Assembly: GCF_023566055.1 (NCBI RefSeq)
Contig: NZ_JALIQP010000005.1
Span: 124,001 to 188,000, forward strand
Direction: 5' to 3'
Source of the DNA: Halosolutus amylolyticus
GTDB lineage: Archaea > Halobacteriota > Halobacteria > Halobacteriales > Natrialbaceae
Length of the DNA: 64,000 nucleotides
Positions 6,681 through 56,925 of the stretch are shown piece by piece (position 1 is the first letter of the stretch; every line of letters begins with the position of its first letter). Below the pieces are notes generated by a model that had not been told where the DNA came from, searched no databases, and saw only the letters and a program-made list of their open reading frames with translations. The position numbers were made by a program, and so were the translations under genes.

Positions 6681-7499
6681 TTACTCGTTCTCTTCGTCCT
6701 GCAATTCCGCGAGTTCGCTCTCGATCTCCTCGTCGTCGACCTCGCTCGCTACCTCCTCGATCTCTTCCTCGTCGACCGCGTCGGGATCGGCGGTCGACTC
6801 CTCGACGCCGACGTCGGACTTGAGCGTCTCGAGTTCGGCCTCCACGCCGCTGTCGGTCGAGAGCGACTCGAGTTCCCGATCGATGCTGTCCTTGTCCGAG
6901 AGGACGTCGTCGAACGCGCCGCTCTCGTGGAGTTCGTCCATGGCGGCCGCCCGGGCCTCCATGTCCTCGGTCTGCTCCTCGGCGCGTTCGATCGCGCGGC
7001 CGACGTCCTCGAACTCCTCGCCGGTGGCCGTCATCGCTTCCGAGACCGAGGAACTGGCCTTCGCGGCCTCGTGGCGGGCCTTCATCGTCTCCTTCTTGGT
7101 GCGGAACTCCTCGATGCGCGTCTGGAGTTCGTCTTTCTGCTCGATCAGCCGATCCTGCTGGTTCTGGAGCTCCGAGATCTGGCGATCGAGGTCCTCGATC
7201 TGGTTCATCTTCGTCTTCTTCTTCTCGAGGGCGCGTCGCGCCAGATCTTCCCGGCCCTGTTCGACCGCCGTGCGGGCCTGCTCGTTGTGTTTGTCGACGT
7301 TCTCCTCGAGGCGCTTTTTCTGCATCTCGAGGCGCTTTTTCTGCGTGGTGAGGTCGGCGATACCACGTTTGACGTCCTGGAGCTGGTCGCGCATTTGCTC
7401 GTAGGAGTAATCGAGCGTCTCCGTCGGATCTTCGGCCCGGTTGAGCACCGAATTGATCTTCGACCGGATGACGTACGAGGCCCGAGAGAGGATGCCCAT
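6681..7499 (-). CDS. pspA: PspA/IM30 family envelope protein
   Basis: The 272-residue protein starts MGILSRASYVIRSKIN, the amphipathic N-terminal helix typical of PspA/IM30/Vipp1. A long coiled coil covers about residues 25-180 (LDYSYEQMRDQLQDVKRGIA, and repeated Gln/Lys/Glu heptads). The family belongs to the ESCRT-III superfamily and polymerises on damaged membranes. The C-terminal 70 residues are an unusually acidic tail beyond the family core, common in haloarchaeal versions. Its promoter should lie in the AT-rich stretch just upstream (about 7520-7545). Confidence 0.92.
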   Translation of the reverse strand: MGILSRASYVIRSKINSVLNRAEDPTETLDYSYEQMRDQLQDVKRGIADLTTQKKRLEMQKKRLEENVDKHNEQARTAVEQGREDLARRALEKKKTKMNQIEDLDRQISELQNQQDRLIEQKDELQTRIEEFRTKKETMKARHEAAKASSSVSEAMTATGEEFEDVGRAIERAEEQTEDMEARAAAMDELHESGAFDDVLSDKDSIDRELESLSTDSGVEAELETLKSDVGVEESTADPDAVDEEEIEEVASEVDDEEIESELAELQDEENE

Positions 7500-7725
7500 A
7501 CTCGTACGTCTCGCTCGGTACCCTTAAAAACATCACATTAACGACAGTCATGGCCGGAATGAACTCCTGTCGTCGATCGTTCGCCGATGCTGACTGTCGG
7601 CGTCACCGACCGATCGCCGCCCCGCTCGAACCCGAACGTCCCCGAAGACGACGGCCGACAAATAGCCGACTGGGAACCCGCTCCCGTTCAGTGACTACTA
7701 AGGGCGGCGGTGACAACGATCGGGC

Positions 7726-8334
7726 ATGACCGACGTCCTCGTCCCCGGCGGGCGCGACGTCCGGGGGATCCTCGACGAACCCGCGGACGCTCCGAACGCG
7801 ATCGTCGTCGCCTGTCCACCCCATCCGCAACACGGCGGTTCGCGATCGGATCGCCGACTGACGGCCGTGAGCGAGACCCTCACGGCGGCGGGAATCGCCT
7901 GCCTCCGGTTCGATTACGGGCCGTGGGAGGAGGGAGTGGGCGAGCGCGAGGACGTCCGGAACGCGATTCGATGGGCCGGCGAGCGAGCCGATCGCGTCGG
8001 CGTCTTCGGCTTCAGTTTCGGCGCTGCACAGTCACTGCTCGCCACGGCCGACGTGGAGGTGGCCGTCTCGGCCGTCTCCGTCCTCGCTCCGCCGGCACGG
8101 CTCGGTCCCGATCTCGACGCCGTCGCGGCTTACGATCGACTCGACTGTCCCGTCCAGGTCTGTTACGGCGAACGCGACACGACCGTCGACTCGGAGCCGA
8201 TCGTCGATCTGGCCCGCGAGCGGGACGACGAGGTCGTGACGTTCTCGGCCGACCACTTCTTCGTCGGCCAGCACGACGCGATCGCGAGCGAGGTCGGCTC
8301 GTTCTTCGAGCGGACGGTGGCCGGTGGCGCGTAG
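7726..8334 (+). CDS. Alpha/beta hydrolase
   Basis: The 202-residue protein has the nucleophile elbow GFSFGA with Ser97 and an early oxyanion strand followed by CPPHPQHGGSRSD. A candidate acid lies in CYGERDTTVD and a late histidine in SADHFFVGQHD. This order matches the dienelactone hydrolase / YqiA-like small hydrolases called alpha/beta superfamily hydrolases in archaea. The substrate is unknown. It converges on herA, and palindrome copy B fills the gap between them. Confidence 0.8.
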   Translation: MTDVLVPGGRDVRGILDEPADAPNAIVVACPPHPQHGGSRSDRRLTAVSETLTAAGIACLRFDYGPWEEGVGEREDVRNAIRWAGERADRVGVFGFSFGAAQSLLATADVEVAVSAVSVLAPPARLGPDLDAVAAYDRLDCPVQVCYGERDTTVDSEPIVDLARERDDEVVTFSADHFFVGQHDAIASEVGSFFERTVAGGA

Positions 8335-44850: not shown

Positions 44851-44860
44851 CAGTCCGTGG
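44851..44860. repeat. Left target-site duplication
   Basis: CAGTCCGTGG is identical to 47151-47160. It abuts the left terminal inverted repeat of the inserted element. Confidence 0.7.
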
Positions 44861-45070
44861 GATCTGTCGAAACCCTTGATCGGAGACATATTTCAGGAAT
44901 CCTGCTGAATATAGAGCATGGATGCAGCACAGCGCCATCGTTTGTTTCGTGCCCAATTCACTGAACCAACCGGTCAGTACATCTGCGTACTGCGCGGAAC
45001 TGAAATTGCTGTGGATACCACAAGATCGGAGATAATCAAACATTATAGTGTATTGGAATGATAGGTAAGT

Positions 45071-45397
45071 ATGCCCTTTAGCGAAGACGGTTCAACGACG
45101 ATTCCTACTTTCGGTGCATCTGCCCGCACTATAGTCAGCGTCCGTAATGCTGTGATGGTAATCGCTGGCCTTCTGGCCGGAGCCAGTCTTGTGTTCTTGG
45201 GGGAGGAGACTGTTGTCGTCCCCGTTATCGGGTCAACCCCGGGAATACTGGTCGGTACCATCGGACTCGTCACTGCACTGGCCATCACTCGACGGGGAAG
45301 TTGCTGTGACAACTGCAACTCCAAGGAGTGTGGTTGCTCCGGTGACTGTAGCGAGAGTTGCTCATACGACCCGCGACGGGGACGAGGGAGAGAGTAG
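45071..45397 (+). CDS. Two-helix membrane protein with Cys-rich tail
   Basis: The 108-residue protein has two hydrophobic helices (about 28-46 and 48-72). Its tail carries seven cysteines within about 18 residues (CCDNCNSKECGCSGDCSESC) and a basic end. The cluster could bind zinc, copper or iron-sulfur, or form a disulfide knot. I do not recognise it. It is the first cargo gene of the inserted element. Confidence 0.65.
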   Translation: MPFSEDGSTTIPTFGASARTIVSVRNAVMVIAGLLAGASLVFLGEETVVVPVIGSTPGILVGTIGLVTALAITRRGSCCDNCNSKECGCSGDCSESCSYDPRRGRGRE

Positions 45398-45578
45398 ACT
45401 TCTCTAACCCTGTTATCGGTACTCGCTGATAGAACCGAAACGGTTCACCGTGGCATCGGTGCAGTTCGAAATTAGGTAAACGCTCAGTAGGTACAGGAGA
45501 AACAACGAGCGACTCAACGTGAAGGTACGATTATCCTGTGAAAACACTATTTATCCGTCGGAATTGAGTAGTATGATA

Positions 45579-46337
45579 ATGACGGAGAGAGACACCTATC
45601 TACGGAATCCGACCCTTGAGTATATCGCGACCAGTCCCCGGCGGGAGTGTCTTCTCGCCCTGAACAAGTGGGGACCAACGCTCTCTGTAAAACAACTTGC
45701 CGCCTACCTTGCTGCCACGGAAAAGGGAGAGTCGTCGCTCGATACAACAGAGTTCGAAGCAATGCAGATGCAACTTATCCATATGCATCTGCCAGTACTG
45801 GAAAATGCAGACTTCATTTCGTGGGATGGAGATAATAGCGACGTCCAAATCGCCGGACACCCTGCGCTCGATGACCCCCGGTTCGAACGATTACTTAGGG
45901 CCAAGGCCGACAATATGGATACGATACTCTCGGCGCTCTCCCACGAATACCGACGGATCACGCTGTCTGTTCTCGAGATCGACCAAACGAAGTCCCGAAC
46001 TGAACTGGCACACGAGATTCACCACCGCTTGCCAGTGCCAGATCAGGGCGAACCACCATCAACCAAAGAGATCGAACTCTCACTACACCATATGCACCTC
46101 CCATCCCTCGACGATATCGACGTAATCAATTTTGACCCTGACACGGGTGATGTCACTTACAATGATAATCCCGTTATCGAACAAGTCTTCACGATAATCT
46201 TCGATCGTGACGACTCTGCTGTTGAGAAGCTTGACGGATTCTTAGACGGGCTTGCGGATTCCTACCCTGAGGTTAGTCAAGGAACGAACAGCCAAGTCGA
46301 ATGGCCGCACTTCTGGAACGATCCGTACTATGGATAG
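45579..46337 (+). CDS. Two-domain winged-helix protein, DUF7344-like, in the element
   Basis: The 252-residue protein has two winged-helix repeats: TSPRRECLLALNKWG with LIHMHLPVLENADFISWD, and LSHEYRRITLSVLEI with SLHHMHLPSLDDIDVINFD. This is the domain pair seen in the 10512-11138 protein, but codon use is much more AT-rich. A TATA-like CTATTTATC (45547-45555) is 28 nt before ATG 45579, so leaderless expression is likely. ATG 45573 is an alternative. It overlaps the next gene by 8 nt. Confidence 0.78.
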   Translation: MTERDTYLRNPTLEYIATSPRRECLLALNKWGPTLSVKQLAAYLAATEKGESSLDTTEFEAMQMQLIHMHLPVLENADFISWDGDNSDVQIAGHPALDDPRFERLLRAKADNMDTILSALSHEYRRITLSVLEIDQTKSRTELAHEIHHRLPVPDQGEPPSTKEIELSLHHMHLPSLDDIDVINFDPDTGDVTYNDNPVIEQVFTIIFDRDDSAVEKLDGFLDGLADSYPEVSQGTNSQVEWPHFWNDPYYG

Positions 46338-46719
46338 CACGTTAGAACTATGGGCGTACGTTATCAGTAACATTGGAGCAGTCGTAGCGGGGAGTCTCCT
46401 GACCGCATTGAGCTTCATCGCGTATCGACGAAACACAAATCAGGAATCGTATCGGTTTGCCACCTTAGGGTTCGGTCTGATCGTCGTGGGAACGCTCGTT
46501 GATCCGGTCTTCTTCCTCTGGATGTCGATCGACTATCACTTATCATTCACCGAAATCTTACTCCTCCAAGTCAGTGAGGATCTCTTATTCGCGGCTGGGC
46601 TCGGACTACTCTTCTATGCAATTCTCCAGTACGACAGTTCGAATGCTTCGACAGCGGAAGGACCTATATCATCTGAGGACGAATTGCTTTGGAACCAGCA
46701 GTCACAGAACGATGACTAA
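46330..46719 (+). CDS. Small multi-helix membrane protein (DUF7521-like)
   Basis: The 129-residue protein has three hydrophobic helices (about 10-28, 43-63, 78-99) and an acidic tail. Its start overlaps the stop of the DUF7344-like gene, so the two form a coupled pair. This pairing of a DUF7344-type regulator with a small membrane protein recalls a family I know as DUF7521, but I am not certain. A role as a membrane signal partner is an inference. Confidence 0.65.
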   Translation: MDSTLELWAYVISNIGAVVAGSLLTALSFIAYRRNTNQESYRFATLGFGLIVVGTLVDPVFFLWMSIDYHLSFTEILLLQVSEDLLFAAGLGLLFYAILQYDSSNASTAEGPISSEDELLWNQQSQNDD

Positions 46720-46725
46720 GCACGT

Positions 46726-46944
46726 TTACTGATCAATCGTGATTGTGCCGCTATCCACAGTTATATTGTAACCGATATACTCAAACTGGATCTTACTTGA
46801 TTCAGCAAGACGGTCCAGTGCATCGGGGTCAACGATATCATATAGAGGTGGCAAGTCCATCGGATCCTGTCCCTCCATTTCAGCCACTCTATTTATAATT
46901 TCAATGGATGGACTGGACCGTGAGCTCATCGTTAGATTCCCCAT
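46726..46944 (-). CDS. HalOD1 output-domain protein in the element
   Basis: The 72-residue protein is one HalOD1 domain (SIEIINRVAEMEGQDPMDLP, PLYDIVDPDALDRLAES, and GYNITVDSGTITI), clearly related to the 37762-38076 protein. The ATG at 46944 was chosen; ATG 46929 is possible. It is convergent with the membrane-protein gene, only 6 nt away. Its codon use is AT-rich like the rest of the element. Confidence 0.78.
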   Translation of the reverse strand: MGNLTMSSRSSPSIEIINRVAEMEGQDPMDLPPLYDIVDPDALDRLAESSKIQFEYIGYNITVDSGTITIDQ

Positions 46945-47150
46945 TAGGGACCTAATTCGATGGCCCCGCTTATGATTGAATCCCGAATTAAAGTAGGCGA
47001 TTATCAACAATGATGGTTGGCAACTCCCCGCAAATGAATCTCCTGTACTGACCGATCACTACCGGCGCAAATCGAGGCGAATCCCGTGCGACATTCGCGC
47101 CTTGTATTCAGCAGGCAAATCCTATCAGATACTGAGAGTTCCAACAGAGC

Positions 47151-47160
47151 CAGTCCGTGG
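47151..47160. repeat. Right target-site duplication
   Basis: CAGTCCGTGG directly abuts the right end of the element and is identical to 44851-44860. Confidence 0.7.
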
Positions 47161-56331: not shown

Positions 56332-56925
56332 ATGGGATTCGCGAAACAGTGGAAGGGGGTCAACGGGTACATGATCCGTGATCCGGGAACGTTCTTCACG
56401 AAGTACGACGAATCGCGCGGGATCGGCTTTCCGATCGCGTTCATGCTGGTCTCGTTCGTCGCCGTCATGGTGCCGCTCGCGGTGCTCTCTGCCGCGCTGA
56501 ACGTCACTACCCCGGGCGACGCGGCGATCGGCCTGGTGGCATTCCTGGCACTCGGCGTCGTCTTCTGGGTCCTGGGGCTCGTCGAGGCGCTGCTCGCACA
56601 CGGCATCGTCTACCTGTTCGGGGCGCGCGGTCTGGCGAAGACGCTCGAGGCGTACGCGTTCCCGACCGTCGTTCGATACGGCCTGTGGTGGATCCCGATC
56701 GTCCAGCTCGTCGGCCTGTACGGGTTCTACCTCCAGATCAAGGGTATGGCCGAGTTTCACGGCATCTCGACCGGGAAAGCCGCGATCGCCGGCATCCTCG
56801 CGTCGATCCTGTACTTCCTCCCGGTCATCGTCGTCCTCGCCGCCGTGATCGCCGCGTTCGTCCTCGATCTCGGTTCGACGGCCGAACCAGCGCCGGCCGT
56901 GCTCCTCGTCGAGCACGTCGCGTAG
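56332..56925 (+). CDS. YIP1-family membrane protein
   Basis: The 197-residue protein has an amphipathic start (MGFAKQWKGVNGYMIRDPGTFF). Five hydrophobic segments follow (about 38-60, 67-90, 100-115, 125-145, 155-175). This is the layout of archaeal Yip1-domain proteins, membrane proteins of unknown role. It lies downstream of fdhF but has its own TATA box, so it is a separate unit. Confidence 0.8.
   Translation: MGFAKQWKGVNGYMIRDPGTFFTKYDESRGIGFPIAFMLVSFVAVMVPLAVLSAALNVTTPGDAAIGLVAFLALGVVFWVLGLVEALLAHGIVYLFGARGLAKTLEAYAFPTVVRYGLWWIPIVQLVGLYGFYLQIKGMAEFHGISTGKAAIAGILASILYFLPVIVVLAAVIAAFVLDLGSTAEPAPAVLLVEHVA

Follow-up and report, generated by a model that had tools for sequence, protein, structure and literature searches.

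Mobile insertion cassettes, also called transporter IS, carry cargo between the ends of an insertion sequence and lack the transposase. In integrons, the integrase IntI acts on attC sites to insert and excise gene cassettes. Haloquadratum contains PATEs, which have neither terminal inverted repeats nor target duplications, and MITE families, four of the five of which are non-coding and shorter than 500 bp (PMC3119063). TIMEs are Tn3-derived miniature elements and are described as a source of mosaic non-autonomous transposons (PMC4133298). The element reported below lies in a 64,000-nucleotide stretch of Halosolutus amylolyticus DNA (contig NZ_JALIQP010000005.1, positions 124,001 to 188,000; the window), and its coordinates are those of the window.

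Comparison with nine other copies fixes the element at 44860-47151 (2292 bp). The initial annotation had recognized a discrete element and placed it at 44861-47150; the element stands and its limits move. A 10-bp target duplication had also been proposed. The 10-mer CAGTCCGTGG does flank the segment as a direct repeat (44851-44860 and 47151-47160), but the true duplication is the 8-bp AGTCCGTG, a register taken from the nine further copies, each of which has a perfect 8-bp duplication. The outer C and G of CAGTCCGTGG are the terminal base of the element on one side and a matching host base on the other. The terminal 16 bp read GGATCTGTCGAAACCC on the left and, reverse-complemented, GGCTCTGTTGGAACTC on the right, and 12 of the 16 positions are identical. 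CCTGCTGAATA lies near both ends, at 44901 and inverted at 47115. GC content drops from ~0.66 outside to ~0.50 inside the element. These inverted ends and the AT-rich composition are as first noted. Just inside the termini are two conserved blocks, L-in (~87 bp) and R-in (~72 bp), which recur across haloarchaea as cassette borders (Table 1).

Table 1. Features of the element and its target site in the window.
Feature	Position	Strand	Basis
Target site duplication AGTCCGTG, left copy	44852..44859	.	sequence and comparison with other copies
Left terminal segment, with the inverted repeat GGATCTGTCGAAACCC followed by a spacer unlike array junction spacers	44860..44902	+	family consensus, GGCTCTGTTGAAAYCCTCA...TGATA...(C)GTGCTGAATA
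L-in, conserved left end block	44903..44989	+	profile match E 2.8e-22 (profile iterated from the window copy itself; L-in also borders cassettes in other haloarchaea)
Cargo 1, Cys-rich membrane protein, 108 aa	45071..45397	+	ORF
Possible remnant of a right-end block (inverted, eroded), between cargo 1 and cargo 2	45484..45500	.	weak
Cargo 2, DUF7344 (winged-helix-type) protein, 272 aa from GTG	45519..46337	+	Pfam DUF7344 E 4.6e-26
Cargo 3, DUF7521 small membrane protein	46330..46719	+	Pfam DUF7521 E 2.3e-8
Cargo 4, HalOD1 protein	46726..47010	-	Pfam HalOD1 E 4.6e-20
R-in, conserved right end block	47042..47113	+	profile match E 3.7e-20; many copies
Right terminal segment, ends in inverted repeat GGCTCTGTTGGAACTC (read inward)	47114..47151	+	
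Target site duplication AGTCCGTG, right copy	47152..47159	.	sequence and comparison with other copies

The initial annotation called the same four cargo genes, which are confirmed by their ORFs and, for the last three, by Pfam. Cargo 1 has no Pfam family above the cut-off (best DUF5336, E 0.01). The DUF7344 match in cargo 2 consists of two stretches, and alternative ATG starts lie further downstream. The start of cargo 3 overlaps cargo 2 by 8 nt, and the start of cargo 4 is uncertain, with TTG used in the current reading. No transposase is present among the four cargo ORFs in either the ORF list or the Pfam scan, as had been stated.

Transport of a small sensor/regulator module in a single piece is not supported in that form, as the four genes seem to derive from two or three once-separate cassettes. 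DNA 80% identical to cargo 2 and cargo 3 occurs in another genome (G004, locus L121) beside an inverted R-in with the other cargo absent. DNA 85% identical to the HalOD1 gene is found on a Natronosalvus plasmid, where it adjoins sequences like L-in and like the start of R-in. Since the DUF7344 plus DUF7521 pair and HalOD1 are each found elsewhere on their own, next to cassette-end sequence, the window copy probably arose when two or three cassettes fused, and their internal junctions have since eroded. The possible remnant at 45484-45500 gives an inverted match to 47039-47055, at the start of R-in, at 14 of 17 positions; together with the inverted R-in that the gene pair adjoins at L121, it is weak evidence for such a junction. 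The window copy is a long, single-unit version of a cassette-family element.

The locus is empty in a relative. In a same-genus genome (G001), the flanking MFS gene (94.7% identical to that in the window over the matched stretch) and radical-SAM gene (92.4%, likewise) are adjacent, with ~67 bp between the matches and no element. The intergenic sequence of G001 is too diverged from the window to read the exact target site, and the single target copy that the initial annotation expected at an empty site is unreadable there. G001 is the only relative that bears on the empty locus, because the genes downstream of MFS differ in the other genomes that have it. The dependence on a single close relative with the same convergent gene pair leaves room for a segment that was ancestral at the locus and lost by the relative. 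This history is very improbable given the target duplication and defined termini at the site, the low GC content and the nine further sites of the same kind.

Searching each element end against the genome returned partial copies elsewhere in Halosolutus amylolyticus, and the terminal consensus read from the edges of the copies is GGCTCTGTTGAAAYCCTCA. The matching ends that the initial annotation had proposed to look for are thus found at many insertions besides this one, both in Halosolutus amylolyticus and in haloarchaea at large. Together with the empty G001 locus, they support its view that a non-autonomous transposon has inserted between convergent host genes. Other copies have perfect 8-bp duplications, such as TCGCCCAC, GTCCAGGT, CTTAGCCT and AAAAATCG. 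Of 42 terminal-repeat pairs at non-redundant loci, a perfect 8-bp duplication is present at 10, compared to 0.0006 expected, which places the duplications beyond chance. The pairs with a perfect duplication span 650-3080 bp and differ in cargo, and are independent copies. Two related segments were also observed. A 3079-bp element (L144, 9575-12653) shares the terminal repeat and is flanked by the perfect duplication GGTGGTTC, but its subterminal sequence is different; its cargo consists of amphi-Trp, HalOD1 and bacterio-opsin-activator-domain genes. A 4.4-kb segment (L067, 2626-7027) has terminal repeats and a 7/8 duplication, and a gene for a XerA-like tyrosine recombinase (NCBIfam recomb_XerA_Arch, below cut-off) lies beside it at 7147-8109.

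In related genomes, the termini of IS5-family elements (NCBIfam transpos_IS5_2; L186, L189, L195, L206 and L214) read, for example, TGCTYTGTTGAATCCG or GGCTCTGGTGAATCRC, and these elements are flanked by perfect 8-bp duplications. Their termini are similar, not identical, to those of the element (~12-13 of 16 positions). The Halosolutus amylolyticus genome also has IS5-type transposases with termini of a similar kind, and in one of its copies, with the family termini and the duplication GTCCAGGT, the enclosed sequence includes a transposase frame of the IS5 type that contains a single stop. The element is likely to be mobilised in trans by a transposase of the IS5 type, because the terminus type and the 8-bp duplications are shared with haloarchaeal IS5-family elements. 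A transposase from elsewhere, most likely of the haloarchaeal IS5 (ISH1-like) type, would cut at GGCTCTGTTGAAA-type termini, and the cut segment would insert with an 8-bp target duplication. We infer both the identity of the transposase and the present-day activity of the element from sequence. No intact autonomous element with exactly the family termini was found, which counts against the IS5 explanation. An IS6-type origin of the termini was rejected, as haloarchaeal IS6 termini are GGCACTGTCTAGTT or similar, with GGCACTGTCTAGTT or GGYGGTGTTTAGTT at the ends of the copies detected. An IS1595-type origin was also discarded after searches gave no matching termini.

The element is probably a non-autonomous cargo transposon that depends on an IS5-type transposase in trans and is the single-unit form of a cassette-array system, fused as it seems from more than one cassette. 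It is like mobile insertion cassettes in having IS-type inverted termini around a cargo that replaces the transposase and in its target duplication, AGTCCGTG. It differs from them in the long conserved subterminal blocks, the haloarchaeal host and the arrays of tens of cassettes. Terminal repeats of the GGCTCTGTTGAA type and 8-bp duplications are common to the element and haloarchaeal IS5 (ISH1-like) elements; the element differs in having longer conserved ends and a variable cargo, and it encodes no intact IS5 transposase. TIMEs are Tn3-type bacterial elements, unlike this haloarchaeal one, and we know of no regular arrays of TIMEs. The PATEs and MITEs of Haloquadratum are likewise transposase-less haloarchaeal mobile repeats, but the element is not a PATE because it has the terminal inverted repeats and duplications that PATEs lack (PMC3119063).

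The same end blocks border arrayed cassettes, which makes the element the single-unit form of a cassette-array system. The commonest order is head-to-tail, with L-in, cargo, R-in and a fixed spacer followed by the next L-in, cargo and R-in. The junction spacer was 38 bp in 33 of 40 cases in the first set and 39 bp in 43 of 49 with refined profiles; the two figures describe the same spacing because the anchors shifted between profile sets. The junction core has its own consensus with inverted boxes and is conserved and partly palindromic. Array junctions are without the terminal repeats. A 2.2-kb transposon (L113) with the perfect 8-bp duplication AAAGAGGT encloses an internal cassette junction, indicating that a multi-cassette unit moved as one. 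Complete cassettes (n = 80) have a median length of 723 bp and mostly one ORF, in either orientation. The scan of 82 cargo proteins gave 75 Pfam families, the commonest being DUF7344 (10 of 82), and no transposase is among the 25 of these 75 families that were listed. A role of the cargo as a defence system was rejected after a census gave just scattered weak matches to defence genes. Neither the arrays nor the element matched Rfam. End sites had a junction partner (161), a terminal repeat (32), both (2) or neither (72); those with neither, about a quarter, are interrupted or degraded, and many lie beside insertion sequences. The terminal motif occurs in 6 of 801 random 75-mers.

Several variants of the ends were observed. 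A 154-bp cassette (L106, 7598-7751) consists of just the two end blocks with the cargo absent. The sequence GAGT(G/A)TCCATCGGTCATTCCA interrupts the left end block at L106 2361, L109 10780 and L116 13492, at nearly the same position in two genomes, which suggests another element targeting these ends. A different IS5-type element with termini like GGYCTTGTTTAGACG is recurrent inside junction arms next to CTGTATTCAGCA (L105 ~7036, L110 ~6633, L114 6554, L115 8340 and L116 15633). A second junction-like layout, with the inner end of an inverted R-in, ~60 bp (in some cases with AAGCAGTTACCG) and the left end block, is seen at L117 10731, L114 7233, L115 1711, L106 92 and L122 7440.

The exact junction pattern matched 21 stretches among 84,980 species genomes, all haloarchaeal by name. 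The terminal consensus matched 113 plasmid records, whose listed organisms are haloarchaeal, and neither the exact junction nor the terminus matched viral contigs. A sequence model of the junction core detected at least 103 of the 145 genomes of the class (~70%) and at least 47 of 59 genera, which are lower bounds because at most 28 candidates per genome were scored, and matches in the training genomes are not independent because the model was partly built from those genomes. The end blocks belong to a widespread, apparently undescribed cassette family, and no description of the arrays was found in the open-access PMC literature searched. The array in genome G068 has ~28 plus-strand junctions within 36 kb. 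A left terminus lies at 56442 and a right one at 92340, and there is one further, internal right terminus. No matching duplication was found at its ends, which counts against the transposon explanation there.

The likeness of the arrays to integrons and CALINs, including archaeal integrons (PMC9668308), lies in the short, mostly single-gene cassettes and a conserved, partly palindromic site that separates them. A term search of PMC9668308 gave no mention of haloarchaea. It is scarcely credible that the arrays are canonical integrons or CALINs with attC sites, despite the similar architecture. The integron integrase TIGR02249 is above the cut-off in none of seven array-bearing genomes, and G068 has none even at E 1e-5. 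Terminal repeats with 8-bp duplications and genes in either orientation also do not fit, and transposon termini as array bounds are a further difference.

Near-identical cassettes are present in different arrays, and in the clearest pair (L041/L116) identity is limited to the cassette. In eight homologous cassette pairs, identity averages 93% over the cargo and is no higher than background in the left spacer. For three of the eight it is near background in the end blocks as well, which means that breakpoints vary and that the junction core is not in every case the site of exchange; as an examination of site-specific crossover, the pairs gave a mixed outcome. Arm variants match across junctions at 0.735 versus 0.557 when shuffled (p 0.001, n = 49), and between the two ends of one cassette at 0.553 versus 0.583 (p 0.81, n = 73), in shuffles that do not control for relatedness, which inflates such tests. 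The covariation across junctions and not within a cassette suggests that the junction core is inherited as a unit. New cassette combinations would arise through recombination at or near the junctions, judging from these comparisons.

These data bear on how the arrays form. They may have arisen solely from adjacent insertions of IS5-dependent, MITE-like cargo elements that lost their abutting terminal repeats, followed by homologous recombination between ~195-bp end repeats, in which case no dedicated recombinase exists. This origin is plausible, at somewhat under an even chance. By inspection, junction halves resemble terminal segments minus the ~19-bp terminal repeat per side, the breakpoints of several homologous cassette pairs fall in the end blocks or to the inside of them, and insertion sequences frequently target these ends. 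However, the constant 39-bp spacer and the core consensus are hard to obtain by independent deletions, and the arm variants argue in the same direction, with kinship uncontrolled. Alternatively, a trans-acting site-specific recombinase could insert and excise cassettes at the junction core in an integron-like manner. The fixed spacing, the long co-oriented arrays of single-gene cassettes, the recurrence of cassettes across arrays, the inverted boxes and the arm covariation all favour such a recombinase, but a scan of 20 larger proteins encoded within the G068 array or next to it found none, circular cassettes were not seen and some breakpoints are outside the core. We regard this second origin as possible, somewhat on the doubtful side of even. 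A haloarchaeal cassette-array system, with mostly single-gene cassettes, a fixed-length core, a putative trans-acting recombinase that exchanges them and IS5-type termini that bound and move whole arrays, is proposed tentatively, as somewhat less likely than not.

The array system, rather than the element itself, is the surprising part. Should the arrays serve to capture cassettes, much of the accessory gene exchange in haloarchaea would use a structure that standard annotation leaves unlabelled. Many small hypothetical genes (DUF7344, HalOD1 and others) would then be explained together as cassette cargo, and the system would be an archaeal counterpart of integrons with a separate origin. The fixed junction provides a direct handle for experiments. 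Even if the arrays derive from MITE-like ends and homologous recombination, they define a very widespread family of cargo-moving elements. The arrays raise the question of whether integron-like architecture evolved more than once.
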